Part shown: piece after piece, positions 1,872 through 17,337 of the stretch
Layout of the letters: the number at the start of each line of letters is the position of its first letter
Numbering within the stretch: the stretch's first letter is position 1
Assembly: GCF_005696555.1 (NCBI RefSeq)
Contig: NZ_CP040005.1
Span: forward strand, 744,001-808,000
DNA from: Actinomyces sp. oral taxon 171 str. F0337
GTDB lineage: Bacteria > Actinomycetota > Actinomycetes > Actinomycetales > Actinomycetaceae
Length of the DNA: 64,000 nucleotides
Direction: 5' to 3'
Notes under the pieces: generated by a model
Told to the model about the DNA's origin: nothing
The model's input: only the letters and a program-made list of their open reading frames with translations
Databases searched by the model: none
Program-made: the position numbers and the translations under genes

Positions 1872-1985
1872 CACCTGAGTCTCACCTGAGGACCTCGCGG
1901 CCGCCGCCACCAGTACGGTGGCCGGCGTCGCGACCGGCCCCGGCCCGTGGAGCACCGCCTCACGGTGATGGGTGAGAATGGCCTC

Positions 1986-4439
1986 GTGACCTCCCCGTAC
2001 CGCCTGGCTCTCCTGACGGAGCCGCCGACCTGGCAAGGCCGGCCCCTGAGCGGTAGGAGCCTTGACCTGCTCGCCGTGCTCGCCGGCAGCCAGGACGCCA
2101 GGGTGAGCGACGGCGCCCTCATTGAGGCCCTGTGGCCCGACGACGCCCCGGCCCGGCCACTGCGGGCGCTTCACGTCGTCGTCTCCCGGCTGCGTGCCGT
2201 CGTGGGGGAGGGTGTCGTCGAGCGCAGCGGCGATGGCTACCGACTGGAGCTGGCGGAGGCGGAGGCTGATGTCCGGGACCTGTCGTATCGGGCGGAGCGC
2301 GCCCGAGCCTGCGCCGCCGCCGGCCAGTGGGAGCAGGTCCTCGATCTCGCCGACCGACTGCCCCAGGTGCCCGTTCCCGACGAGGTCGATGACAACGGTG
2401 GAGCAGGAGCCGCCCCTATGGCCCTCTTGCGAGAGCGGGCTGCAGCCCTGACCGAGGGTGCCCGCCGCGACCGGGGGCTCGCCCTGGAGGCCACCGGTGA
2501 GCACGAGCGGGCCGTGGACCTGCTGCGTGAGGCCTCCCAGCGCGACGGCGGCGACGAGACCGTCCTGGCCGCCCTCATGCGCGCCGAGTCCTGGGTGCGC
2601 TCACCGGCTGCGGCCCTGGAGATCTACGAGCAGCACCGCCGTCGGCTGCGCGAGCTGGGAGCCGTGCCCGGACCGGCCGCGCGCGCCGCCCACGAGGCCG
2701 TCCTGGCCGCCGAGAGCCCTGTGCGCCACGGCCTGCAGCCCGAGCCCGAGCACTTCCTGGGGCGCGAGGCGGACGTGACCGGTGTTCTCAAGGCCCTGAG
2801 CACCCACCGTCTGGTGACGCTCACCGGCCCCGGTGGGGTCGGCAAGACCACCCTGGCCCAGGTGGTGGCGGCCCGCAGCCGCCGCCCCGCCGTCTACGTC
2901 GTCGCCCTCGCCGAGGTGTCACCCGGAGCCGATCTGGCCAGGGTCGTGCTCGACGCAATCGGAGGCTCCGCAGTCGTCAACGGTGACCCGCACCGCGATC
3001 TGGCCGCCGCCCTCTCCCAGCCCGGAACCGTCCTGGTGCTGGACAACTGCGAGCACCTGGCCGGCGAGGCGGCCGACCTCATCGGGCCGCTCCTGGTCGC
3101 CTGCCCCGATCTGCGCGTGCTGGCGACCTCGCGCCGCCCCGTCGACCTGGCCGCGGAGCACGTCCACCGCCTTGAGGCCCTCAATGCTGCCTCCTCCGCC
3201 GAGCTCTTCCGCGCCCGTGCTCTGGCGGCTCGCCCCGGCCAGGTCATCGACGATGACGACTTAGGCGAGCTCCTGAGCCGGTTGGAGGGCATCCCCTTGG
3301 CCATCGAGTTGGCCGCCGCGCGCACCCGCAGCCTGTCGGTCGGCCAGATCGCCGAGCGACTGCCCGGCAGACCCGATCTGCTCACCGCCGCCCGTGACGC
3401 CCCGGCCCGTCAACGCACCCTGACAGCGGTCATCGAGTGGTCCTGGAACCTGCTCGACGCCGCCGAACGCCGCGCCCTGGCTCGGCTGGCCCTGCTCCCC
3501 GACGGCTTCACCCTCCTGCCCGCGGAGGCGCTCATCGGCGCGCAGGCCGCCGACCTCCTCGACGCCCTGGTCTCCCACTCCCTGCTCGTGGTGCGCGACC
3601 ACGGCCTGCCCCGCTTCCACATGCTCGTCACCGTCCGCGACTTCGCTCTGGCGCAGCTGTCCGCCTCCGGTGACGAGGCCGAGGCCCGCGCGGCCCTGCG
3701 CCAGTGGGCGGTGGACCTGTGCTCCCAGATCCGTTTTCCCGTGGACGCCGGCGACTTCGGCGACGCCCGTCACCCCGAGGCGCGCCGCCACGACCGCCTC
3801 TTCCGGCAGGTCGCCCACGATGAGGCCGTCATCCTTCAACAGCTCGACCGGCTCCTGGCACAGGCCGACGGCCACGGCACGGATCACCTGCCGGCGGAGC
3901 TGCGCGACGCCATCTGCCTCATCGGTGCCGCCCTCATGCGCCTGTGGAGCGTCACCTGGAGCTATGAGCGCATCGCCGACTACGGTGCGCGCCTCATCGC
4001 TGCCGCCGTCCAACCCGCCCAGGACTCACGCGGCAACGAGGCAGGCCTGAGCGTCCTGGCCCTGTGCGTCACCCTCTTCGGGCTCCTGAGCCACGTGCCC
4101 GAACAGGTCCGCTCCCTGCTGCCGGCCTCCTTCGACGGAGAGGGACCGTTCAGCCGGGTCAGGCGCTTCCTGCGTGCGAGCGACGAGCAGTGGTCCGAGC
4201 TGACCGGCGACGCCGACCCCTGGGTCGCCTGGGCGGCGACCCGCTGCCTGGCCGCCCAGCAGGAGGACGACGGCGATCCTCAGGCCTCCCTGGAGACCAT
4301 CGAGGCCCTCCTGGGGCGGCTCCATGGCCACGACCTGGCCGGCATTCACCTGGCTCGAGCTGCACCTCCACCGGCTGCAGGTGCTCATGTCCCTGGGGCG
4401 TTACAGCCAGGTCGTCGACGCCTGCTCGCGCGCCCAAGT
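1986..4439 (+). pseudogene. AfsR/SARP-family regulator, 5' part (frameshifted, cut by transposon)
   Basis: Amino-terminal part of a large SARP/AfsR-type transcriptional activator. In order: an OmpR-like winged helix (about residues 5-85), a bacterial transcriptional activator domain rich in helices (about 90-250), and a STAND-type NTPase with P-loop GPGGVGKTT at 281-289 and Walker B VLVLDNCEHL near 349. GTG 1986 is chosen because GAGAAT lies 6 bases before it, as at other leaderless-looking genes here; ATG 1968 and GTG 1947 are in-frame alternatives. The coding frame changes by one base between about 4316 and 4390. Downstream of that point the other frame (WLELHLHRLQVL, then LGRYSQVVDA) is the protein-like one and joins exactly to the 3' fragment beyond the transposon. 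Intact, the product would be about 1,059 residues. Confidence 0.85.
4431..4439 (+). repeat. Left copy of 9-bp target-site duplication
   Basis: CGCCCAAGT directly before the left end of the transposon. The identical 9 bases follow the right end at 13996-14004. Nine bases is at or above the top of the usual IS21-family range, so one base may be coincidental. Confidence 0.85.
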
Positions 4440-4465
4440 TGGTTGTGACAGCTTGGTTCGGCCCC
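4440..4465 (+). repeat. Left terminal inverted repeat of the transposon
   Basis: 26 bases starting TGGTTGTGACAG and ending GGCCCC. They pair with 13970-13995 at 19 of 26 positions. Confidence 0.88.
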
Positions 4466-4466
4466 G

Positions 4467-4530
4467 TTGTGACGGCCTGATCTGGCCCCGCGTGCGACTT
4501 GCCGGGGTGTTGACGGTCTGAACTGGCCCC
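4467..4530 (+). repeat. Two further copies of the terminal repeat (left subterminal)
   Basis: 4467-4489 and 4508-4530 are each 23 bases of the form TGTGACGG-CCTG-A-CTGGCCCC and repeat the inner part of the left terminus (4443-4465). Multiple terminal repeats of this kind serve as transposase binding sites in IS21-family elements. Confidence 0.8.
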
Positions 4531-4587
4531 ACCCCTTCACGCTGGTCCCCATCACTGGGAACCAGTCGCGAGGGCAAGGGAGCCAAG

Positions 4588-6255
4588 ATGGGATCACGAG
4601 TGCAGCTGTACGCCGACATCCGCCACGACGCGCGAGTCGATGGCCTGTCCATCCGCGAGCTCGCCCGCAAACACGGAGTCCACCGCCGCACCGTCCGCCA
4701 GGCACTCGCCGCAGCCGAACCCCCACCCCGCAAGAAACCGGTCCGCACAGCACCGCGCCTGGACCCGTACAAGCCGGCGATCGACGAGATGCTCACCTAT
4801 GACCTGACCGCGCCGCGCAAGCAGCGCCATACCGCGACCAGGATCCTGGCCCGGCTGCGCGACGAGCACGGCGCCACCGACCTGTCCTACTCCACGGTGC
4901 GGGACTACGTCCGGGTCAGGCGCGCGCAGATCGATCTGGAGGCCGGGCGCCGGGTGGAGGCGATGGTGCCGCAGGACCACGCCCCCGGCGCGGAGGCCGA
5001 GGTCGACTTCGGCGAGGTCTACGTCATCCTGGACGGCGTCAAGACCAAGTGCCACATGTTCGTCTACCGCCTGTCCCACTCCGGCAAGGCCATCCACCGC
5101 GTCTACCCGACCGGCGGACAGGAGGCCTTCCTCGAAGGACACATCGAGGCCTTCCACGCCCTGGGCGGCATCCCCACCCGCCACATCCGCTACGACAACC
5201 TCACCTCCGCCGTCGTCCAGGTCATCCACGGCGGCGACCGGCTACGCGACGAGAACGAACGCTGAGTGCTGTTCCGCTCCCACTACGGCTTCGACGCGTT
5301 CTACTGCCAGCCCGGCATCGACGGCGCCCACGAGAAAGGCGGCGTCGAGGGCGAGGTCGGATGGTTCCGCCGCAACCACCTCACCCCCATGCCCGAAGTC
5401 GCCACCCTGGACGAACTCAACGACAAGATCCGCGCCTGGGAGCACGACGACAACACCCGCCGCATCACCGGCCACGCCAACACGATCGGGCAGGACCACC
5501 ACGCCGAGCTGCCCCACCTGGCACCGTTGCCGGCCGACGACTTTGACCCCGGCCTGATCCTCCACCCCCGCGTCGACCGCTCCGCCCTGATCACCGTCCG
5601 CATGGTCAAGTACTCCGTCCCCGCGCACCTTATCGGCCAACGCGTCCGCGTGTCCCTGCGGGCCTCGTGCGTGGTCGTGTTCGAGGGCCGCACCGTCCTC
5701 GCCACCCACCCTCGCCTCGGCACCCGTGGCGTGACCCGGGTCGAGCTGGACCACTACCTCGAAGTGCTGCGGCACAAGCCCGGCGCGTTCCCCGGCTCCA
5801 CCGCCCTCGCGCAGGCCCGCGCCCCCGGAGCATTCACCGCGGCCCACGACGCGTTCTGGGCCGCGGCCCGCAAGACCAGCGGCGACGTGGCCGGGACCCA
5901 AGCGTTGATCGACGTGCTCCTGCTCCACCGATCCCTCCCGTCCGACGCGGTGATCGCCGGCATCACCTCGGCCCTGTCGGTGGGCGCGATCAGCCCCGAC
6001 GTCGTCGCCGTCGAAGCCCGCCGCCATGCCACCACCCACACACCCGCCCCAGCCAGCCAGACCAGGGGCGGGACGGTCGTGAACCTGCCACCCCGACGCC
6101 CCACCAACCCGCACCAGGTCATCGCGCACCTGCCCGAAGACACCCGGCCCCTGCCCACCGTCACCGCCTACGACGAACTCCTGTGCCGACGCCAACCCGA
6201 TCCCGCCCCGGCCCCCGCCGAGACTCACCACCACACCCCGACAGGAACCCTATGA
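4588..6255 (+). pseudogene. istA: IS21 transposase IstA with an internal stop codon
   Basis: DDE-type transposase of an IS21 element, 555 codons if the internal stop is ignored. An N-terminal helix-turn-helix (SIRELARKHGVHRRTV, about residues 13-30) is followed by the catalytic core with Asp in EVDFGE (about 136) and RYDNL (about 204), and Glu in HEKGGVEGE. A TGA at 5263-5265 lies in the same frame between the second Asp and the Glu, in NER-stop-VLFRSHYGF. Relatives usually carry an aromatic residue at this position, so a TGG to TGA change is the simplest explanation. A GTG directly follows the stop, so the second half might be reinitiated, but neither half alone has a full active site. The stop of istA overlaps istB by 4 bp. 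Confidence 0.9.
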
Positions 6256-7067
6256 CCACCACCAGCACCAGCCGTCCCGAGAGCCTTCGCCGTCGTCAGG
6301 GCCTCACCGAGCAAGCCGCGCAGGCCGCGATCGACCAAGCCTGCCGCCGGCTTCGGCTGCCCACGATCCGCGCCGTCGTCGACGACGCCGTGACGGCCGC
6401 CACCAAGGAACAACTCACCTACCAGGGCTTCCTCGCCGAACTCCTCCTGGCCGAGGTCGACGACCGCGACCGCCGCTCCACCCTGCGTCGCATCAAGAGC
6501 GCCGGCTTCCCCTGCGAGAAATGGCTCGCCGACTTCGACTTCACCGCGAACCCCAACATCAACCCCGCCACCATCAACGAGCTCGCCACCGGCGACTGGA
6601 TCCGCCGCGGCGACCCGCTGTGCCTGATCGGGGACTCCGGCACCGGCAAGTCCCACCTGCTCATCGCGCTCGGCACCGCCGCCGCCGAGCAGGGCTACCG
6701 CGTCCGATACACCCTCGCCACCCGGCTCGTGAACGAGCTCGTCGAAGCCGCCGACGAGAAACAACTCACCAAGACCATCAACCGCTACGGCCGCGTCGAC
6801 CTCCTCGTGATTGACGAGCTCGGCTACCTGGAACTCGACCGGCGAGGCGCCGAACTGCTGTTCCAGGTCCTCACCGAACGAGAGGAGAAGAACGCCATCG
6901 CGATCGCCTCCAACCAGTCCTTCTCCGCCTGGACCGACACCTTCACCGACCCCCGCCTGTACGCAGCAATCGTCGACCGCCTCACCTACAACGCCACCAT
7001 CATCGAAACCGGCACAAACTCCTACCGCCTCGCCCACACCCGAGCCCGGGCATCTGTGATGGGGTGA
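6252..7067 (+). CDS. istB: IS21 transposition helper ATPase IstB
   Basis: AAA+ ATPase of the DnaC/IstB family that assembles on target DNA and activates IstA. 271 residues, the normal size. P-loop GDSGTGKS at 127-134, Walker B DLLVIDELGYL, then a sensor region with ASNQSFSAW and a C-terminal arginine-rich stretch. It starts at ATG 6252 inside the istA stop (ATGA overlap), so its translation would normally be coupled to istA; the stop within istA upstream could lower its expression. The copper genes on the opposite strand end 26 bases after it. Confidence 0.93.
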   Translation: MTTTSTSRPESLRRRQGLTEQAAQAAIDQACRRLRLPTIRAVVDDAVTAATKEQLTYQGFLAELLLAEVDDRDRRSTLRRIKSAGFPCEKWLADFDFTANPNINPATINELATGDWIRRGDPLCLIGDSGTGKSHLLIALGTAAAEQGYRVRYTLATRLVNELVEAADEKQLTKTINRYGRVDLLVIDELGYLELDRRGAELLFQVLTEREEKNAIAIASNQSFSAWTDTFTDPRLYAAIVDRLTYNATIIETGTNSYRLAHTRARASVMG

Positions 7068-7092
7068 ACAACGACCGGCTGGGCTCTTGGGG

Positions 7093-9561
7093 TCAGCGGT
7101 GACGGCGCAACCGCAGCGAGTTGGTGATCACGCTGACCGAGCTGAGGGCCATGGCGGCGGCCGCGATGACGGGCGACAGCAGCCAGCCAAAGGCCGGGTA
7201 GAGGGCGCCGGCGGCCAGCGGGATACCGACCACGTTGTACACGAACGCGAAGACCAGGTTCTGGCGGATGTTGCGCATCGTGTCGACCGACAGATCGCGG
7301 GCCTTGACCAGGGCGGCCAGGTCACCGCCGAGCAGGGTCACGTCGGCGCTCTCGATGGCCACGTCGGTGCCGGTGCCCATGGCCACACCCACGTCGGCCA
7401 CGGCGAGGGCGGGGGCGTCGTTGACGCCGTCGCCGGCCATAACGACCGTGTGGCCCTGGGCCTGCAGGGCCTGCACGTGGCCGTGCTTCTGGTCGGGCAG
7501 GACGTCGGCGACGACCTGGTCGATGCGCAGCTCGTCGGCGATGGCCCGGGCGGTGGTGGCATTGTCGCCGGTGAGCATGACGACCTTCATCCCGCGCCGA
7601 CGCAGGTCCTCGATCGCGCCGGCGGTGGTCGCCTTGAGCGGGTCGGCGATGGCCAGCACACTGGCGGGCCTGCCGTCGACGGCCACGACGATCGCGGTCG
7701 CGCCACGGCGACGGTAGGCCTCCACCACGGCGTCCAGGGCATGGGTGTCGACGTGCTGGCTGCCCAGGAAGGCGGGGCTGCCGACGAGCACGTGCTGACC
7801 GTCGACGGTGGCGCTGACACCGCCACCCGGGTGGGCGGCGAAATCGCTGGCCGCCGGCACCGTGCGTCCCGTCTGGCGGGCAGCATCGACCACCGCCCTG
7901 GCGAGGGGGTGTTCGGAGCCGGCCTCCACAGCCGCGGCGAGCAGCAGTGTCCGGGCATCCTCGTGGCCGTCGACGCCCTGCTGGTCGACCAGGCTGGGGC
8001 GGCCCTGGGTGAGGGTACCGGTCTTGTCGACGACGAGGGTGTCGACCTTCTGCAGTCGTTCGAGGGCCTCGGCGTTCTTGACCAGCACGCCCTCGCTGGC
8101 GCCGCGCCCGACCCCGACCATGATCGACATTGGCGTGGCCAGACCCAGCGCACACGGGCAGGCGATGATCAGCACGCTGACGGCGGCCACGATCGCGAAC
8201 GGCAGCCGCGGCTGCGGCCCGATCGCCAGCCACAACCCGAAGGTGGCCAGGGCGACGGCGATCACGACCGGCACGAACACCGCCGAGATCTTGTCGACCA
8301 GTCCCTGGATCGGAGCACGGGACCGCTGCGCCTGGGAGACCAGGTCGACGATCCGGGCCAGGGTCGAGTCGGCGCCCAGGCCAGTGGCCTCCACCACCAG
8401 GCTGCCGCCCTGGATGATCGTGCCGCCGATGACCCGGTCACCGGGGCTCTTGTCGACCGGAACCGGCTCGCCGGTGATCATCGACTCGTCCACATACGCG
8501 TGACCATCGACCACGGTGCCGTCGGCCGGCACCTTCTCGCCCGGCCGCACCCGGCACCGATCGCCCAGCTGCAGCTCGGCGGCCGGCACGTCGGTCTCGG
8601 TGCCGTCGGCCCCGATGCGGTGCGCGGTGGCCGGTGACAGGTCGAGCAGGGTGCGGATCGCACCGGAGGTCTGGTCGCGGGCCCGCAGCTCGAGGACCTG
8701 GCCGAGCAGCACCAGGGTGATGATGACTGCCGCGGCCTCGAAGTAGGTGCCGACCCGGCCGTCCATCGCCCGCATCCCGGACGGGAACAACCCCGGCGCC
8801 AGCACCGCGACCACGCTGTACAGCCACGCGGCACCGACACCCAACGACACCAGGGTGAACATGTTCAGGTGACGGCTGACCACCGACTTCGCGCCGCGCA
8901 CGAAGAACGGCCACCCAGCCCACCACACCACCGGCGTCGACAGGGCCAGCTCGAGCCACGGCGCGACGCTGCCGGGCAGCGCACGCCCCAGCACCATGGG
9001 AACCATCACCATCGCCACCAGCGGCACGCTCAGCACCGCCGCCACCCGGAACCGGCGACGCATGTCGACGAGCTCCTGGTTCGGGCCGTCGTCGAGCCCG
9101 GCCGAGACCCGCTCCAGCGCCATGCCACAGATCGGGCAGTCACCGGGGCCGTCGCTGCGGACCTCGGGGTGCATCGGGCAGGTCCAGTCCCCTGCAGCGA
9201 CCGCACCGGCCACCACCGCCGGCTCGCCGGTGGGGTGCTGGTGGTCGTGGTGCTGTGCGGCCGGCGCGTCCCCACCGTCGGCGGGTTGCAGGAACATCCC
9301 GCACTTGGGGCAGCGTCCCGGGTGGTCGCTGGTCACCTCGGGGTGCATCGGGCAGAGCCACGTGCCCTTGTCGTGGGTGTCGTGCTGCTGGGCATGTCCG
9401 TGCTGGCGGCCGTGTCCGTGCTGGTGGGAGTTGCCGTGCTGGTGGGACTTGCCGTGCTGGTGGGTGGTGCTGGTGGGGTCCTGGTCGGTCATTGGGCCGG
9501 TCAGGGGCTGGCGGGGGGCCTCGCCGAAGGAGCGGGGGGCCTGGTCGGGGCTCGTGTACAT
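7093..9561 (-). CDS. copA: Cu(I)-exporting P1B-type ATPase with His-rich N-terminus
   Basis: Pumps Cu(I) out of the cytoplasm using ATP. 822 residues. Residues 34-63 are histidine-rich (HQHG repeats). Two short heavy-metal-binding motifs of the form CPMHPE...PG-CP-CGM follow at 70-90 and 128-148 in place of the usual ferredoxin-like HMA domains. After them come the membrane helices, the TGEP actuator loop, CPC at 468-470 in the transport helix, phosphorylation site DKTGT at Asp512, GDGVND, and a final helix with MALSSVSV, which fits the M-x-x-S-S motif of Cu(I) pumps. Start ATG 9561 is chosen for the AAGGA seven bases upstream; an in-frame extension to 9735 has no such site. A putative CopR box lies 83 bases upstream. 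Confidence 0.92.
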
Positions 9562-9643
9562 GGCGTGTCCTTGTCTGCTCGGGGAAGGGGTTTTCCTTCC
9601 ACTTCCACGGTGACGGGGCGAGGTCAATGAGCTCGCGAGGTTT

Positions 9644-9661
9644 GGTGAAGGTCTGGTCAAG
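9644..9661 (-). promoter_or_regulatory. Putative copper response-regulator box upstream of the ATPase
   Basis: Read on the minus strand: CTTGACC, 4 bases, CTTCACC, two direct half-sites 11 bp apart. It matches boxes at 11278-11295 and 13909-13926. Spacing of one helical turn is typical of OmpR/PhoB-family sites. Confidence 0.6.
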
Positions 9662-9748
9662 CTCTGCAGACGGCGATGGTGAGGCTGCCGCAAGGGGGCA
9701 GCCGCGCCATCAGGGCAGGCGTGGGTGGCCGACATCGGCCGGGAGATG

Positions 9749-11233
9749 TCAGTAGCGCAGGGTCGTCATCATGCCGAGTTCGGCGTGGTAGATGTTGTGG
9801 CAGTGCAGCATCCAGGTGCCGGGGTTGTCGGCCTGCAGGTCGGCCTCGACGGTCTCCATGGGGCGGATCAGGACGGTGTCCTTGCGCAGCCCGTCGCTGC
9901 CGGGCAGGGCCCAAGTGTGGCCGTGGATGTGCATGGGGTGGGCCATCATCGTCATGTTCGTCATCCGCAGCCGCACGCGCTGGCCGCGGCTGAGCGCCAG
10001 TGGGGTGTCCTCGCCGAAGCGTTTGCCGTTGAGGCCCCACGCGTAGGGCTTCATCTGGCCGTTGAGTGCCACGTCGAGGGTGGTGTCGGGCTTGCGGTCG
10101 GGCAGTCGGGCGCTGTCGGCGGGCTTGAGCTGGGTGGTCAGCAGGGCCTTGCCGTCGAGTTCTGCGATGCGGGTGTCCGGGGCCGGGACGTTGCCGGAGC
10201 CGGTGCGCACGATGGCGCGGGCCGGGGTGCCCTTCTTGCCCTCGGGCGCGGCCTGCAGCACGAACACGCCGTCGCCGAGGGTGATGGTCGCATCCAGTCG
10301 TTCTCCCATCGCGAGGTAGACGGCGCTGGCCTGGGTGGGGGTCACAGGGAACCCGTCGGTGTGGGTGACGGTGAGTCGATGGCCCTGCAGGGCGAGCTTG
10401 AAGATGGTGTCGGAGGAGGCGTTGACGACGCGCAGTCGTACCTTCTGCCCGGGCTTGGCGGTCAGGGTGCGGGGCGCGGCGGGGACGCGGCCGTTGACGA
10501 GGTAGTGGGGGTAGGTGACGTCCCCGGCGTCACCCAAGGGTGACATGCCGTGGTCCATGCCGCCCATGTCGTGGTTCATGCCGCTGGACACGGTGCCGTT
10601 CTGGGCCTTGAACGCGGCGAGGATGTCATCGGGTGAGGTGCCCACGCCATCGGCCCAGTCGTCGAGGGTGATGATCCACTCGTGGTCGTAGCGGCCGGGT
10701 TCAGCGGGGTCGTCGATGACCAGCGGCCGGTACAGGCCGCGGTCGATCTGCACCCCGGTGTGGGGGTGGAAGAAGTAGGTGCCGGGGTCGGGGGCGACGA
10801 ACTGGTAGGTGAAGCTGCTGCCGGCCTCGATGGGTTGCTGGGTGACGCCGGGCACGCCGTCGCTTGGCTGGCGCAGCGCGATGCCGTGCCAGTGGACGGA
10901 GGTGCTGGTGGGAAGCTTGTTCTCGACGCGGACCTGCAGCAGGTCTCCGGCGCGGGCCCGCAGGACGGGGGCGTCGAGGGTCTCGTCGTAGGCCCAAGTC
11001 CTGGCCGTGACGCCGCCCAGATCGAGGGTGACCGGCCGGGGCGTGAGGACGTGGTTGACGGTCTTCGTGCCGGGGGCTGCGACCAGCGGGGTCTGGCTGG
11101 GGATCGTCAATGGGGAGTTCGGCGCGGCGGGTGCTGCGGCCGGGGTGTTCTTGGCGCCGCAGGCGCTCAAGGCCCCTGCCGAGGCCAGGCCGAGACCGGT
11201 GAACACGACGTGGCGGCAGGAAAGTGTGTTCAC
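9749..11233 (-). CDS. Multicopper oxidase lipoprotein (copper tolerance)
   Basis: Probable extracytoplasmic cuprous oxidase that oxidises Cu(I) to less harmful Cu(II). 494 residues. The N-terminus has a hydrophobic stretch ending in lipobox LSAC (Cys25), so it is probably lipid-anchored. All four copper-ligand motifs are present: HWHG (114-117), FFHPH (154-158), HPMHIHGH (from 432) and [13 protein letters not shown] (from 477). Between about 215 and 235 there is a Met/His-rich insert ([12 protein letters not shown]) like the methionine-rich regions of CueO-type oxidases. The start is GTG 11233; AAGGAC lies unusually close to it. It is transcribed towards the ATPase but separated from it by 187 bases that include a box of its own. 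Confidence 0.92.
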
Positions 11234-11277
11234 GTCCTTGAGCCTGTCGGGCCCGGATGAAGCCCCCGGCAGGGGTT

Positions 11278-11295
11278 GGTCAAGATCTGGTCAAG
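11278..11295 (-). promoter_or_regulatory. Putative copper response-regulator box upstream of the oxidase
   Basis: Read on the minus strand: CTTGACC, 4 bases, CTTGACC, a perfect direct repeat. It ends 44 bases before the oxidase start and overlaps the stop codon of the sensor-kinase gene. Confidence 0.65.
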
Positions 11296-12397
11296 AAGTC
11301 ACGGTGGGCAGGGTCAGCGCGAAGGTTGCGCCGTGGCCGGGGCCGTCGCTGTGGGCCGTCAGGTCACCGCCGTGGGCGCGGGCAATGGCCCTGGAGATCG
11401 CCAGGCCGACACCGGTTCCACCGTCGACGTCGCGAGTGCGGGTGTCCTCGACGCGGTAGAAGCGTTCGAAGACGTGGGTGAGGGCCTCGGTGGGGATGCC
11501 GACGCCGTTGTCGGTGACGCGGACCACGGCCCGGTCGTGCTCGTGTCTCATCGCGACCTCGACCCGGTTGCCGCCCACCGTGTGTTGCAGGGCGTTGCGC
11601 AGCAGGTTGTCCAGGACTTGCCCGATGCGAGCGGCATCCACGTCGACGCGCAGGCCGGGAACGGTCTGGGCGTGCAGCGTCACCCCGGCGGCGTCGTAGG
11701 CGTGCCGGGCTGCGGCGACGCTGGCCGTCACGATCTGGTCGACGTCCTGGTGGCTCAGCGACAGTGGGATGCGGCCTTCCTCGGCGCGGGAGACCTCAGA
11801 GATGTCGGCGGCCAGGGCGGCCAGCCGCTGGTTCTGCCGTAGCAGGATCTCGACGTTTGCGGGGGTGAAGTCGACCACACCGTCCTGCAGTCCTTCGAGG
11901 GTGACCTGGGTGGCGGCCAGCGGGGTGCGCAGCTCATGGCCCAGGTCGGTGAGCATGCGTCGTCGGGTCTGCTCCGTGGAGGCGATCTGGCTGGCCATGT
12001 GGTTAAAGGCGTCAGCGACCTGGGCCAGCTCGGGGCTGGCCGAGGTCATCATGACGGGTTGGTCGTAGTGTCCGGCGGCGACATGTTGGGCGCCGTCCAC
12101 GAGGGCTTCGACCCCGCGCGACAGGTTCCGGTTGAGGACGGTGGCGACCCCGAGGGCGGCGAGCATCGCGGTGCCCAGACCCACGGCCAGTGACACCAGG
12201 CCCGCGTCGTGGAAGGCCTGCTGAGCGTGCTCGACGACATCGGGCTGGGCGTGGCCGGCTTCGAGCATGTGCATCCGGAACCATGCCGGGCCGACCAGCA
12301 GTGCCGTCAGCACCATGGTGGCGGCCATCGCCGCCACCACGGCCATCTGGGTCCACAGCAGTCGGCGTCCCCAACTGCCGCGCGGGTTGCGCGGCAT
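11291..12397 (-). CDS. Sensor histidine kinase of the copper island
   Basis: Membrane sensor kinase, 368 residues from ATG 12397, probably detecting periplasmic-side copper as CusS/CopS proteins do. Two membrane helices (about 14-38 and 68-88) flank a short extracellular loop of only about 30 residues containing HMLEAGHAQPDVVEH, whose His and Met could bind metal. Then come HAMP, the phosphoacceptor segment DLGHELRTPL (His154) and the ATPase with N, G1 (DNGVGIP) and G2 (GTGVGL) boxes. The start overlaps the response-regulator stop by one base (TGATG); GTG 12400 is an alternative. Its cognate targets are inferred from three shared boxes in the island. Confidence 0.92.
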   Translation of the reverse strand: MPRNPRGSWGRRLLWTQMAVVAAMAATMVLTALLVGPAWFRMHMLEAGHAQPDVVEHAQQAFHDAGLVSLAVGLGTAMLAALGVATVLNRNLSRGVEALVDGAQHVAAGHYDQPVMMTSASPELAQVADAFNHMASQIASTEQTRRRMLTDLGHELRTPLAATQVTLEGLQDGVVDFTPANVEILLRQNQRLAALAADISEVSRAEEGRIPLSLSHQDVDQIVTASVAAARHAYDAAGVTLHAQTVPGLRVDVDAARIGQVLDNLLRNALQHTVGGNRVEVAMRHEHDRAVVRVTDNGVGIPTEALTHVFERFYRVEDTRTRDVDGGTGVGLAISRAIARAHGGDLTAHSDGPGHGATFALTLPTVTS

Positions 12398-13113
12398 CAC
12401 TGCCCTTGGCCCATCCGGTAGCCGACGCCGCGCACCGTCTGCACGAACCGGGGCTGGGAGGGGTCGTCACCGAGCTTCTTGCGCAGGTGCGCGATGTGCA
12501 CGTCGACCAGGTGGTCGTCGCCGACCCAGTCCTCGCCCCACACGGCGTCGGTGAGCTGGCGGCGGTTCAGCACCCAGCCGGGGTGTTCCGCCAGGGCCTG
12601 CAACAGGTCGAACTCGGTACGGGTCAGCTCCACCGGTGACGCGTCGAGCTCCACCCGACGCGACGACGGGTCCAGGGTGAGGGCGCCGATGCGGTGCACC
12701 ACCGCGGCCGTGGCGCCCGTACTTCCGGCGCGGGGGCGTCTCAGCAGCACCTGGATGCGAGCCACCAGCTCACGCGGGCTGAACGGTTTGGTCATGTAGT
12801 CGTCCGCGCCGACCGACAACCCGATCAGCTTGTCGACCTCGTCGGCGCGGGCCGTGAGCATCAACACGTAGCAGTCGCTGAAGGTGCGCAGCTGGCGGCA
12901 CACCTCCACCCCGTCCATGCCCGGCAGGCCCAGGTCCAGCACCACCACGTCGGGGGCCGTGGCCCGGACAAGGTCAAGCGCGGCCAGCCCGTCCCCGCAG
13001 GTCTGGGCCGACATACCGGCCCGCTCGAGGTAGTTCTTCACCGTGCCCGACAGCACCGGCTCGTCGTCGACGACCAGGACACTCGGTACAACCGCAACAG
13101 AAGCGCTGTTCAT
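12397..13113 (-). CDS. OmpR/PhoB-family response regulator of the copper island
   Basis: 238 residues. Receiver domain with DD at 16-17, phosphoacceptor Asp60 in VVLDLGLPG, Thr in MLTARA and Lys in TKPF. A winged-helix effector domain follows from about 140 to the end (RTEFDLLQAL, VDVHIAHLRKKL, VRGVGYRM). It lies in one operon with the membrane protein upstream (31-base gap) and the kinase downstream (overlap). Direct repeats of CTTGACC with 11-bp phasing upstream of three transcripts in the island are the likely binding sites; this is inference. Confidence 0.93.
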   Translation of the reverse strand: MNSASVAVVPSVLVVDDEPVLSGTVKNYLERAGMSAQTCGDGLAALDLVRATAPDVVVLDLGLPGMDGVEVCRQLRTFSDCYVLMLTARADEVDKLIGLSVGADDYMTKPFSPRELVARIQVLLRRPRAGSTGATAAVVHRIGALTLDPSSRRVELDASPVELTRTEFDLLQALAEHPGWVLNRRQLTDAVWGEDWVGDDHLVDVHIAHLRKKLGDDPSQPRFVQTVRGVGYRMGQGQ

Positions 13114-13144
13114 GACACCACCTCACCACGGACCCGGCCGGGGA

Positions 13145-13864
13145 TCAATTCGACGGGGCGGAGCTGGGCATCATCGTCGAGTGGTCCATGTCCGTCATGC
13201 CACCCATGTCGTGGTTCATGCCGGACATGCTGCCCATGTCGTGCTGCACCGAGGCCGGCGCCTTCGGCGAATAGCCCATGACGGCAGGGTCGAGCATGCC
13301 GAAGATCATCGCGACGTGGGCCACCACCAGGAACACGGCCACCATCGCCACGTGCAGGCGCAGGCGCCCGGTCTCGTCGCGGCCCAAGAGCTCGGCCTCC
13401 AGCAGGCTGATCACCAGCATCGGCACGCCACCGGCCAGGTACGACAGGACAGCGATCACGTCCGCGGGGCCACGCCAGCCACCATTGACCGTCAGCGGAA
13501 CCACGGCAGTGATAAGCAGGTGCAGGCCGATGAACACCCACACCGGCCCGGCCAGCAACCCGGCCCAGTGGCCCACCTTCGTCACCCATCCCGGCGCCGG
13601 ACGCTCACCCCGACGAGCCAACAGCATCACCAACTCGGTGATCGCGAGCGTCTCGGCCAGCACGACCGGAAGCGCCATGAACAACAGCAGGTTCCACGGC
13701 TGACGCACGGCCAACAGCCCCATGTAGTGGGTCATCGGCATGCCCTCCATCCCCGACCCGGAGGTCAGGTCAGGGGCGGCCAGGGCCAGGGCGGCAGCTG
13801 CGATGGTGCCGACACCCAGGGCAACCAGCGGCACGGTACGGGAAGAGTTCTCGTTCGAGGTCAT
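13145..13864 (-). CDS. Integral membrane protein with Met/His-rich C-terminus
   Basis: 239 residues, about six hydrophobic helices. The first exported loop contains GMEGMPMTHYM and the C-terminal tail (from about 205) is a Met/His/Asp stretch ([17 protein letters not shown], then TDMDHSTMM) resembling the insert of the multicopper oxidase in the same island and copper-binding tails of CopC/CopD/PcoE-type proteins. The family is not recognised. A role in copper sensing, storage or transfer is inferred from the tail and from being first in the operon with the regulator and kinase. Start ATG 13864; the putative box lies 45 bases upstream. Confidence 0.8.
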   Translation of the reverse strand: MTSNENSSRTVPLVALGVGTIAAAALALAAPDLTSGSGMEGMPMTHYMGLLAVRQPWNLLLFMALPVVLAETLAITELVMLLARRGERPAPGWVTKVGHWAGLLAGPVWVFIGLHLLITAVVPLTVNGGWRGPADVIAVLSYLAGGVPMLVISLLEAELLGRDETGRLRLHVAMVAVFLVVAHVAMIFGMLDPAVMGYSPKAPASVQHDMGSMSGMNHDMGGMTDMDHSTMMPSSAPSN

Positions 13865-13908
13865 GGCCACAAGCCTCGAAGCCCCACACCGAGGTCGGGG
13901 CAAGGGAA

Positions 13909-13926
13909 TGTGAAGATTCGGTCAAG
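13909..13926 (-). promoter_or_regulatory. Putative copper response-regulator box upstream of the membrane protein-regulator-kinase operon
   Basis: Read on the minus strand: CTTGACC, 4 bases, CTTCACA. It sits 45 bases before the start codon, almost the same distance as at the oxidase gene (44), which supports a common promoter layout and autoregulation of the two-component system. Confidence 0.6.
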
Positions 13927-13945
13927 CCGGTCTCCGGGTAGACAT

Positions 13946-13968
13946 GGGGCCAGAACAGACCGTCACCA
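13946..13968 (-). repeat. Subterminal transposon repeat, right end
   Basis: On the minus strand this 23-base repeat (TGGTGACGGTCTG, then CTGGCCCC) matches the left subterminal copies at 4467-4489 and 4508-4530. Confidence 0.75.
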
Positions 13969-13969
13969 T

Positions 13970-13995
13970 GGGGCCAATCGAAGTTGACAGAGCCA
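13970..13995 (-). repeat. Right terminal inverted repeat of the transposon
   Basis: 26 bases that pair with 4440-4465 at 19 positions. The element ends at base 13995. Confidence 0.88.
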
Positions 13996-14004
13996 CGCCC
14001 AAGT
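13996..14004 (+). repeat. Right copy of 9-bp target-site duplication
   Basis: CGCCCAAGT directly after the right end, identical to 4431-4439. Confidence 0.85.
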
Positions 14005-14731
14005 GCTCCTGGAACGGGTCCTGCCCAGCTGGGGCGAGTTCTTCCGCACGACACTGCACATGGAGGGGGCCTACTGCGCGGTCTACCTCGATCCGCGCCC
14101 CGAGACGGCGGGCAGGCTGCTGGAGAGCCTGGAACCGATCGACCTGCCGGGAACCATGCGCTTCATCGCCCGCTCCGTGCGCGGCGAGCTGGAGCTCACC
14201 CGCGGGAACGCACGCACCGCCGCCCTCATCCAGCGCGTGAGCCTGCGCTACGCCGGGAACTGGCGCTCCATCCTGGGATCGGGCTCCCAGTGGGAGCTCT
14301 ACATCCTGAGCATGTGCCTGGTCACCGACGTCGAGCTCAGCCCCGACGACGCCGTCGAGCTCGATGCCCGAGCCGTCCGTGCCCGAGCCACCTCCCTGCT
14401 GCGCGAGATCCTCTCCGATCCGGCTCCACGGCAGCGTGACATTCCCACGCTCATGGCTTTCGCGGCCGCCGTCGGCCTGTCCGCCGTGGCTGCTGAGGAC
14501 GTGGGCTCCGACCGGCGGGCAGTAGGGGGCGAGCTGGTCGCCACCGCCCTGGCGGTGGGCACCAACCAGACCTGCCGCCTGCTCTCCCACGACTACCTGC
14601 GCAGCCGCACTGAGCGGCTGGACGCCCGGGCACTGGCGCAGGCCGAGGAGAGGATCCGGTCCCTGGACCGCGGTGAGCTCGTGGCTCACGCCGCCGACCT
14701 CGCCGGCCGTCTGGCGGGCGAGGTCGGCTGA
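14005..14731 (+). pseudogene. AfsR/SARP-family regulator, 3' part
   Basis: Carboxy-terminal 240 or so codons of the gene interrupted by the transposon. The frame continues from the left fragment across the target site: left ...DACSRAQV, right LLERVLPSWGEFF. The sequence is helical and Leu/Ala/Arg-rich, as expected for the TPR-like C-terminal sensor part of AfsR relatives. It has no start or regulatory signals of its own; GTG 14003 and downstream codons could start a fragment, but there is no ribosome binding site. It stops at 14731, 17 bases before the convergent ABC permease gene. Confidence 0.85.
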
Positions 14732-16852: not shown

Positions 16853-17337
16853 CCGCCCTTCTCCATCACAAGGTCTACGGCTACGGGGCTCGTTCGTGTC
16901 GTTGCGGCGGGTACTGGAAGAACGCTGTCGACAACCGCGGGCGCCCCTACCTGACCAAGGAAATGAGTGAGCTACGGGCACGCAACATCAGTGAAGACGA
17001 GTGGCAGATGCTCCTGGCCGAGGTCCAGCAGCTGCTCCGGGATGCAGAAGCCGGTCGTCTCAACTACGACAACAGTTACGCCAAGGGCGTCGTCTGCAAG
17101 GCTCAGAGTGCGCATGACGTACTCGAGGCCCGCCTGGAGCTGACCGTCAGCCTCGACGGAGAGCAGCACCATCTGCGGCTGTACTTCAGCGAACCGGATG
17201 ACGAGGACCGTCTGCTGCTCTCGCTGAGCCTCCGCCACAAGCGAGGCGGAATGATCGGACTGGAGGAGCAGGACGAGCACATCGCCACGGCTCAGAGGCG
17301 TTTCGAGTCCTGGGTGCAGACGCGGCGAGCGAAGTGA
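16849..17337 (+). CDS. HigB/RelE-like toxin candidate of a TAC module
   Basis: 162 residues. The last 85 residues have the layout of the RelE/HigB fold: a strand with ARLELTV, then LRLYFSEP, then LLLSLSLRHKRGG, and a closing helix EEQDEHIATAQRRFESW, which resembles the hydrophobic strand, Lys/Arg and final ALA-R helix of HigB toxins. The N-terminal 70 residues (with CRCGGYW and a long helix SEDEWQMLLAEVQQLL) are an extra part not usual in HigB. The assignment rests on these resemblances and on the two genes that follow: an HTH antitoxin with a C-terminal tail and a SecB-like protein. A gene order of toxin, antitoxin, SecB-like chaperone is that of Rv1955-Rv1957 in Mycobacterium tuberculosis. 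Confidence 0.6.
   Translation: MTALLHHKVYGYGARSCRCGGYWKNAVDNRGRPYLTKEMSELRARNISEDEWQMLLAEVQQLLRDAEAGRLNYDNSYAKGVVCKAQSAHDVLEARLELTVSLDGEQHHLRLYFSEPDDEDRLLLSLSLRHKRGGMIGLEEQDEHIATAQRRFESWVQTRRAK

Follow-up and report, generated by a model that had tools for sequence, protein, structure and literature searches.

An IS21-type element of Actinomyces that encloses a predicted copper-resistance module

The question raised by this locus is whether genes that lie beside an istAB pair belong to the mobile element or to the site in which it sits. In the 64,000-nucleotide stretch of Actinomyces sp. oral taxon 171 str. F0337 analysed here (contig NZ_CP040005.1, positions 744,001 to 808,000; "the window", whose own numbering is used throughout), istA and istB, the two genes of the IS21 family of insertion sequences (IS), are followed by five genes with a predicted role in copper handling. 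IS21 is treated as a two-gene insertion sequence, so that analysis easily halts at istB and the rest of such elements is missed. A sequence-only reading of the window had proposed that the copper genes are instead part of a single unit transposon. We find it highly probable that positions 4440-13995 constitute one IS21-type element, an IS21-family "transporter IS" (a unit transposon) with a copper cargo.

Between its left and right ends the element holds istA and istB, followed by the five copper genes in reverse orientation (Table 1). Its limits are exact to the base, as matches in other genomes start at 4440 and stop at 13995. The 26 bases at 4440-4465 are identical at 19 positions to the reverse complement of 13970-13995, the same count as in the sequence-only reading, and none of 20,000 random 26-base pairs drawn from the remainder of the window attains 19 matches. 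Together with the exact recurrence of the limits elsewhere, this rules out chance inverted repeats as the origin of the ends. The element possesses the terminal inverted repeats, multiple inner repeats and TG...CA ends of IS21, as well as its short target-site duplication: the 9 bp CGCCCAAGT indeed stand on both flanks, at 4431-4439 and 13996-14004, and duplications of 5-8 bp, mostly 6, accompany 39 of 80 related loci. The rule that istA and istB lie alone between the ends is broken by five additional genes, and the element is therefore filed as a cargo-bearing variant of IS21. Genomic traces also reveal the defining property of a transporter IS, namely passenger genes unrelated to transposition that have moved with a single IS module.

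The search for the 9.5-kb element or its ends at other loci, proposed as a check by the sequence-only reading, recovered the whole element with the same ends at other sites. It was found in 7 of 49 Actinomyces genomes, window genome included (genomes and loci are cited by number: G000, G001, G018, G020, G032, G042 and G011), among them A. oris WE8B-23 (G001), A. naeslundii NCTC 10301 (G018), A. oris CCUG 34288 (G020) and A. timonensis DSM 23838 (G042). Both ends lie on a single contig in six of these seven copies, and the seventh, from A. haliotis JCM 18848 (G011; 90-95% identity), is spread over two contigs. Outside Actinomyces, the element occurs in Pauljensenia hongkongensis (99.4-99.5%) and Enemella dayhoffiae (94%), which brings the total to nine genomes, eight sites and two orders (Actinomycetales and Propionibacteriales). 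The six single-contig Actinomyces copies agree in their terminal 30 bases, save for one left-end mismatch in A. naeslundii; the left ends of the A. haliotis and Pauljensenia copies bear two mismatches each. Six distinct sites have each their own exact duplication of 6-9 bp: besides that of the window, these are CGGTCGGGC (9 bp) in G032, CCTCGTGG (8 bp) in A. timonensis, ATCATTCC (8 bp) in P. hongkongensis, ACCAGG (6 bp) in E. dayhoffiae and GTGGGG (6 bp) in A. haliotis. Different genomes thus hold the unit, 9.5-9.9 kb long, as a single insertion, and at different sites. The other matches listed in the 49 genomes are shorter and fall mostly, at 64-82%, in ATPase or regulator genes, and G025 harbours a truncated istAB without copper genes.

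The window site offers the complementary view of the locus before insertion. The 400 bp to the left of the element are matched in 31 of the 49 genomes, nearly at full length in 20, window genome included. In all 19 other relatives matched at nearly full length the two flanks adjoin, and in 18 of them they overlap by exactly 9 bp, so that the host gene is uninterrupted and the 9 bp at 4431-4439 are present once, as a search for an empty target site had been expected to reveal; in the nineteenth (L142, with flanks at 74% and 71% identity) the overlap is 11. In four of the 19 relatives (left-flank identity 70-74%) the junction was extrapolated across unaligned bases. Copper genes standing at this place without the terminal repeats, which would contradict a single transposon, were seen in none of the 19, and the empty sites rule out the copper genes as residents of the window site. 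In A. oris CCUG 34288 the window site is empty (L126) although the element is present elsewhere in that genome, and the insertion site shared by the two A. oris copies is uninterrupted in 3 of 3 genomes compared. Eight insertion sites, and a window site that is empty and shows a single copy of the 9 bp in 18 of 19 relatives, lead to the conclusion that the 9.5 kb moved as a unit; recurrent limits at independent sites and empty sites bear out the proposal of a single unit transposon. The G032 copy lies in a repeated gene family, matched 25 times in G032 and 27 times in G005, and a search for its empty site was therefore not used. At 4140-4439 the regulator gene of the window is one base longer than in several relatives aligned on the left side (300 versus 299), which suggests that the interrupted gene may carry a frameshift too.

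The spread of the element appears to be recent. Copies in five other Actinomyces genomes and in Pauljensenia are 99.1-99.7% identical to that of the window over long aligned blocks, and the host gene at the window site diverges by 1% in G020, 9% in G001, 11% in G018 and 16% in G032, the four of these five genomes in which it is matched at full length; G042 contains no match to it. As vehicles of the window copy, both plasmids and phages were considered and rejected: no plasmid record covers 80% of the element, and a single phage record matches 5% of it at 77%.

The transposition genes are of the IS21 type. IstA from the intact G032 copy matches NF033546 at 257 bits (cut-off 160), an IS21-type DDE transposase, and the window IstB, an AAA+ helper encoded directly downstream of istA, matches NF038214 at 265 bits (cut-off 200). 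IstA would bind the repeats L1-L3 and R1-R2, IstB would choose the target DNA, and the whole segment would insert via the usual IS21 reaction. As regards the earlier statement of one istAB pair with five copper genes on the opposite strand, gene content and strands are confirmed, but istA is broken: an in-frame stop at 5263-5265 splits it into parts of 225 and 329 aa. IstA of A. oris WE8B-23 has a small in-frame loss. In the window and in A. oris CCUG 34288 (L051), two copies at different sites in different genomes, the stop falls at one and the same codon (226), which suggests that a copy with the stop may have been mobilised in trans or have exchanged sequence.

The cargo would provide a regulated copper defence, consisting of an efflux ATPase, an oxidase, two-component control and a copper-binding membrane protein, and such a defence would bring a selectable benefit. 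The ATPase passes the copper-type P1B model TIGR01511 (581 bits, cut-off 397), and its gene and istB lie tail to tail, 25 bp apart. The sequence-only reading had spoken of a captured detoxification module; the enclosure of the ATPase, oxidase, two-component system and DUF6803 protein as cargo holds, and their copper role is predicted. In the window, a short upstream His-rich open reading frame (ORF) and the ATPase share one frame, and the two are separate in the other copies of the main cluster; the natural ATPase start may lie near 9561. Among eight related copies (window, L031, L044-L046, L051, L098 and L113), the HMBD-encoding repeats at window 9100-9560 number three in five copies and two in three, the window included, as expected from recombination between repeats. 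No donor of the copper module was found. The DUF6803 protein is present at E <= 1e-20 in 3 of 394 Actinomycetes genomes, window genome included; one related locus (L177) has a related two-component/DUF6803 set and a distant ATPase with no end motifs, and another (L178) matches, among the queries, the DUF6803 protein alone. Around the 71%-identical ATPase regions of G025 and G011, the rest of the module is absent within the 17 kb examined.

The notion that IS21 carries only istA and istB, a textbook rule, does not fit this actinobacterial branch. Among 80 related loci, taken from 127 confirmed IstA-relative loci, a locus was scored positive if it had the left-end motif upstream of istA, the right-end motif downstream and an exact flanking duplication of at least 5 bp. 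Positive loci numbered 39; they are not independent, as some represent the same element several times over (e.g., L071, L072, L074 and L075). The duplication is 6 bp in 30 of the 39 and 5, 7 and 8 bp in three each. Random left positions in the same loci, with the demand for a left motif dropped, scored once in 13,000. In the remaining 41, a motif is missing, the locus runs off the contig, or the ends stand without a duplication. At least 730 bp separate istB from the right end in 36 of the 39 positives (measured from the first istB in L104 and L118), and the other three (L062, L063 and L119) are IS-only, with 97-367 bp between the istB match and the right end. The possibility that the ends occur only around istAB, which would have told against a copper transposon, is accordingly rejected, and cargo appears to be usual in this branch. 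If this is true, actinobacterial metal-resistance operons from several habitats are mobile in an easily overlooked way.

The cargoes are diverse. In addition to the copper cargo of the window (Cu1), a second copper operon (Cu2) lies on the istAB strand in Acidipropionibacterium jensenii, with proteins 58-78% identical, both ends and the duplication CCTGTCG; a contig of A. thoenii (L054) has the Cu2 arrangement in an element cut off by the contig. A genome bin of Propionibacteriaceae (L052) contains a third copper set, which is 64-67% identical where matched and differs in gene order; no right end was seen there. A. thoenii L057, an element running from a left end at 70 to a right end at 8863, carries an arsenic set of ArsA, ArsR, a flavoprotein and Acr3. 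It shares 99.3% of 7.3 kb with the Cutibacterium modestum plasmid NZ_CP017041, whose version has lost the left end and includes an annotated ArsD as well. On that plasmid (L040, NZ_CP017041.1), the genes of a cadmium transporter and of its ArsR-type regulator lie close to the arsenic IS21 element. A mercuric reductase is encoded in L103 (TIGR02053, 520 bits, cut-off 454), a locus without a duplication, and ORFs very similar to it by length and start occur in L107, L109, L110, L112 and L122. Further cargoes are MscL (L079, TIGR00220), an oleate hydratase in an element with the duplication CTCGGT on the Gordonia sihwensis plasmid NZ_CP121249, GNAT and glyoxalase proteins (L047, L049 and L116), a flavin disulphide oxidoreductase (L071), an ECF sigma factor (L089, no duplication) and an ANTAR protein (L094); many cargo ORFs fall in no family, and several had no Pfam match. 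The oxidoreductase gene is carried by one 4.88-kb IS21 element at five Arthrobacter-group loci (L071-L075), four of them with their own duplications. The same IS21 remnant is found in two genera, Mycetocola reblochoni (L058) and Leucobacter sp. (L059): its istA match begins at residue 121, with other ORFs upstream, its right end is present, and its cargo comprises ArsR-type, AHSA1 and GNAT genes.

Because the slot taken here by copper genes contains others in close relatives, among them genes for arsenic and mercury, the element can be regarded as a gene carrier. The istAB backbone is common to the elements up to IstB residue 266, and elements with unrelated cargo have, by eye, the last ~55 bp (R1 and R2) in common; the slot appears to be fixed between the 3′ end of istB and these last ~55 bp. 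In istAB, the arsenic element resembles the window more closely (98.6% identity) than the Enemella copper copy does (94.3%). A tree of istAB does not unite the copper copies: with a support of 1.00, the main copper cluster joins the arsenic element, L048 and L050 to the exclusion of the copper copies of Enemella and A. haliotis, and the Cu2 pair lies at the base. Recombination in istAB could alternatively produce this pattern.

How a cargo enters the slot is suggested by three relatives in which a duplicated right end or istB tail has been kept, pointing to capture through a second, distal right end. Lacisediminihabitans L117 has an inner right end at 13008, which closes a 3,151-bp form, and a distal one at 16965 bearing the duplication GAGAAG, the two segments being 99% identical over 210 bp; the same genome holds the 3,151-bp form without the rest and without a duplication (L116). 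L104 has the same layout, with a right-end repeat of 97 bp at 79%, and in L118, 94 bp of the istB tail are repeated beside the right end at 93%. The transposase would pair the left end with the second right end beyond neighbouring genes, sweeping in the DNA between them, and the inner right end would be lost later. An origin as a composite transposon, in which two IS21 copies flanked the copper genes and the second istAB was lost, is a real possibility, although we lean against it: the istB tail retained in L118 is what a deleted second copy would leave, but L117 and L104 show a duplicated right-end segment only and the copper element keeps no remnant of a second copy. This alternative bears on the origin of the element and not on its present nature. 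With capture through a distal right end as the preferred route, we consider it fairly likely that this IS21 branch is a modular gene-carrier family, in which a constant istAB and a ~55-bp right end frame a fixed slot that would have been loaded at least twice with copper genes, in opposite orientations, and also with further genes, those for arsenic and mercury among them, and that the family travels between orders of Actinomycetota. How a simple IS turns into a cargo transposon is a question that the relatives with two right ends open to direct testing.

It is very unlikely that the passage of the element between species was due chiefly to homologous exchange of the surrounding chromosomal DNA rather than to transposition. 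Two A. oris genomes do carry it at one insertion site, and the common istA stop at two sites (window and A. oris CCUG 34288) fits exchange between copies as well as movement in trans; however, six distinct sites with their own exact duplications, in genera of two orders, speak for transposition. Scarcely credible is a coincidence of two independent events, in which an ordinary IS21 inserted next to a copper operon already in place, the distal right end being a chance or solo repeat and the copper genes no cargo at all, for although the relatives with duplicated right ends show that side-by-side arrangements exist as a stage and L177 that a related two-component/DUF6803 cluster exists without IS21 ends, the whole 9.5-9.9 kb recurs with the same limits and its own duplications at different sites and the window site is uninterrupted in relatives.

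Several observations weigh against a mobile copper unit in its full form. The two A. oris copies (G001 and G020) share one site with the imperfect duplication CTGGCA/CTGGTA, and no recognisable duplication was found at the A. naeslundii copy, the arsenic element L057 or a 10.4-kb Tessaracoccus element (L055). IstA is free of early stops and frameshifts in three of the nine copper copies (G032, Pauljensenia and A. oris WE8B-23). Since the istA of the window is interrupted and no second istAB of its kind is among the matches listed in its own genome, the window copy is probably not self-mobile at present. Copper detoxification by the five genes is predicted from their protein families, and three of the products match general families or domains while scoring below the cut-offs of the dedicated models: the oxidase against the copper-resistance model TIGR01480 (274 bits, cut-off 479), and the kinase and regulator against the heavy-metal models TIGR01386 (156 bits, cut-off 293) and TIGR01387 (166 bits, cut-off 279). 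Finally, the three relatives that suggest the capture route lie outside the copper lineage, and no second right end is left in the copper element. The case for the unit itself is strong, and that for the capture route moderate.

Table 1. Features of the copper element and of the gene it interrupts (window positions).
Feature	Position	Strand	Basis or remark
Interrupted host gene, 5′ part, BTAD / Trans_reg_C / AAA regulator	1947..4439	+	Pfam BTAD, Trans_reg_C, AAA_22; uninterrupted in relatives
Target-site duplication, left copy CGCCCAAGT	4431..4439	.	9 bp; single copy in empty sites
Left terminal inverted repeat L1	4440..4465	+	19/26 to right end; 0-2 mismatches in other copies
Inner left repeat L2 (putative IstA site)	4470..4489	+	IstA-site-like repeat
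Inner left repeat L3 (putative IstA site)	4511..4530	+	IstA-site-like repeat
istA, 5′ part to in-frame stop (225 aa)	4588..5265	+	Intact G032 copy is IS21 transposase NF033546
istA, 3′ part (329 aa, Mu-transpos_C_2)	5266..6255	+	ORF, Pfam
istB helper ATPase (271 aa)	6252..7067	+	Pfam IstB_IS21 1.9e-64; NF038214
Copper-type P1B ATPase, two HMBD metal-binding repeats, ORF of 880 aa	7093..9735	-	Pfam; TIGR01511 and TIGR01525 above cut-off
Multicopper oxidase	9749..11233	-	Pfam Cu-oxidase, Cu-oxidase_2, Cu-oxidase_3; TIGR01480 below cut-off
Sensor histidine kinase	11291..12400	-	Pfam HAMP, HisKA, HATPase_c; TIGR01386 below cut-off
OmpR-type response regulator	12397..13113	-	Pfam Response_reg, Trans_reg_C; TIGR01387 below cut-off
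DUF6803 protein with Met/His-rich tail	13145..13903	-	Pfam PF20617
Inner right repeat R2 (putative IstA site)	13946..13965	-	18/20 to L3
Right terminal inverted repeat R1	13970..13995	-	Pairs with L1
Target-site duplication, right copy CGCCCAAGT	13996..14004	.	9 bp
Interrupted host gene, 3′ part (listed as ORF 14003-14731)	14005..14731	+	Contiguous with left part in relatives

A cargo-bearing IS21 is known in kind, as a transporter IS (tIS). Among the matches listed in the mainly open-access literature, ISfinder not included, no IS21-family transporter IS and no account of this branch appeared under IS21 with passenger or cargo genes, and the matches listed for copper in Actinomyces gave no description of the branch either. 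In the passages cited here, IS21 members consist of istA and istB between two end repeats (PMC10122671), ISLxc1 measures 2,631 bp (PMC2516522) and numerous IS21 members make 5-bp repeats (PMC11208146). Like IS21, IS5376 and ISLxc1, as portrayed there, the copper element has IstA and IstB, multiple terminal repeats, CA at the cleaved ends and a short duplication (PMC10122671, PMC11208146, PMC2516522); unlike these two-gene members, it is 9.5-9.9 kb long with duplications of 6-9 bp, and the duplications of its relatives, mostly 6 bp, also exceed the cited 5 bp. An AAA+ partner of the transposase is shared with Tn7 and Mu-like transposons, IstB being described as similar to MuB and TnsC (PMC10122671), and Tn7-like elements are portrayed as holding cargo between asymmetric ends (PMC13370975); in contrast to them, the window element relies on the two-gene IS21 machinery, with no target-selector family among its searched proteins. 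Tn6516 of the Arthrobacter plasmid pA40H1, with its predicted copper module COP (PMC6305408), is likewise an actinobacterial transposon with a predicted copper-resistance cluster as passenger, but according to the cited passage it is a Tn3-family transposon of 14,887 bp with transposase and resolvase, and its transposition machinery is unrelated. The closest likeness is to the transporter ISs, defined in the passages cited as IS elements carrying passenger genes (PMC7986276, PMC9330008, PMC3129680): here too, one IS transposition module and IS-type ends enclose passenger genes unrelated to transposition. The examples given there come from the families IS6 (PMC7986276) and IS481, ISL3 and ISNCY (PMC6305408), whereas the present branch belongs to IS21, holds up to 7.3 kb of cargo and has many alternative cargoes.

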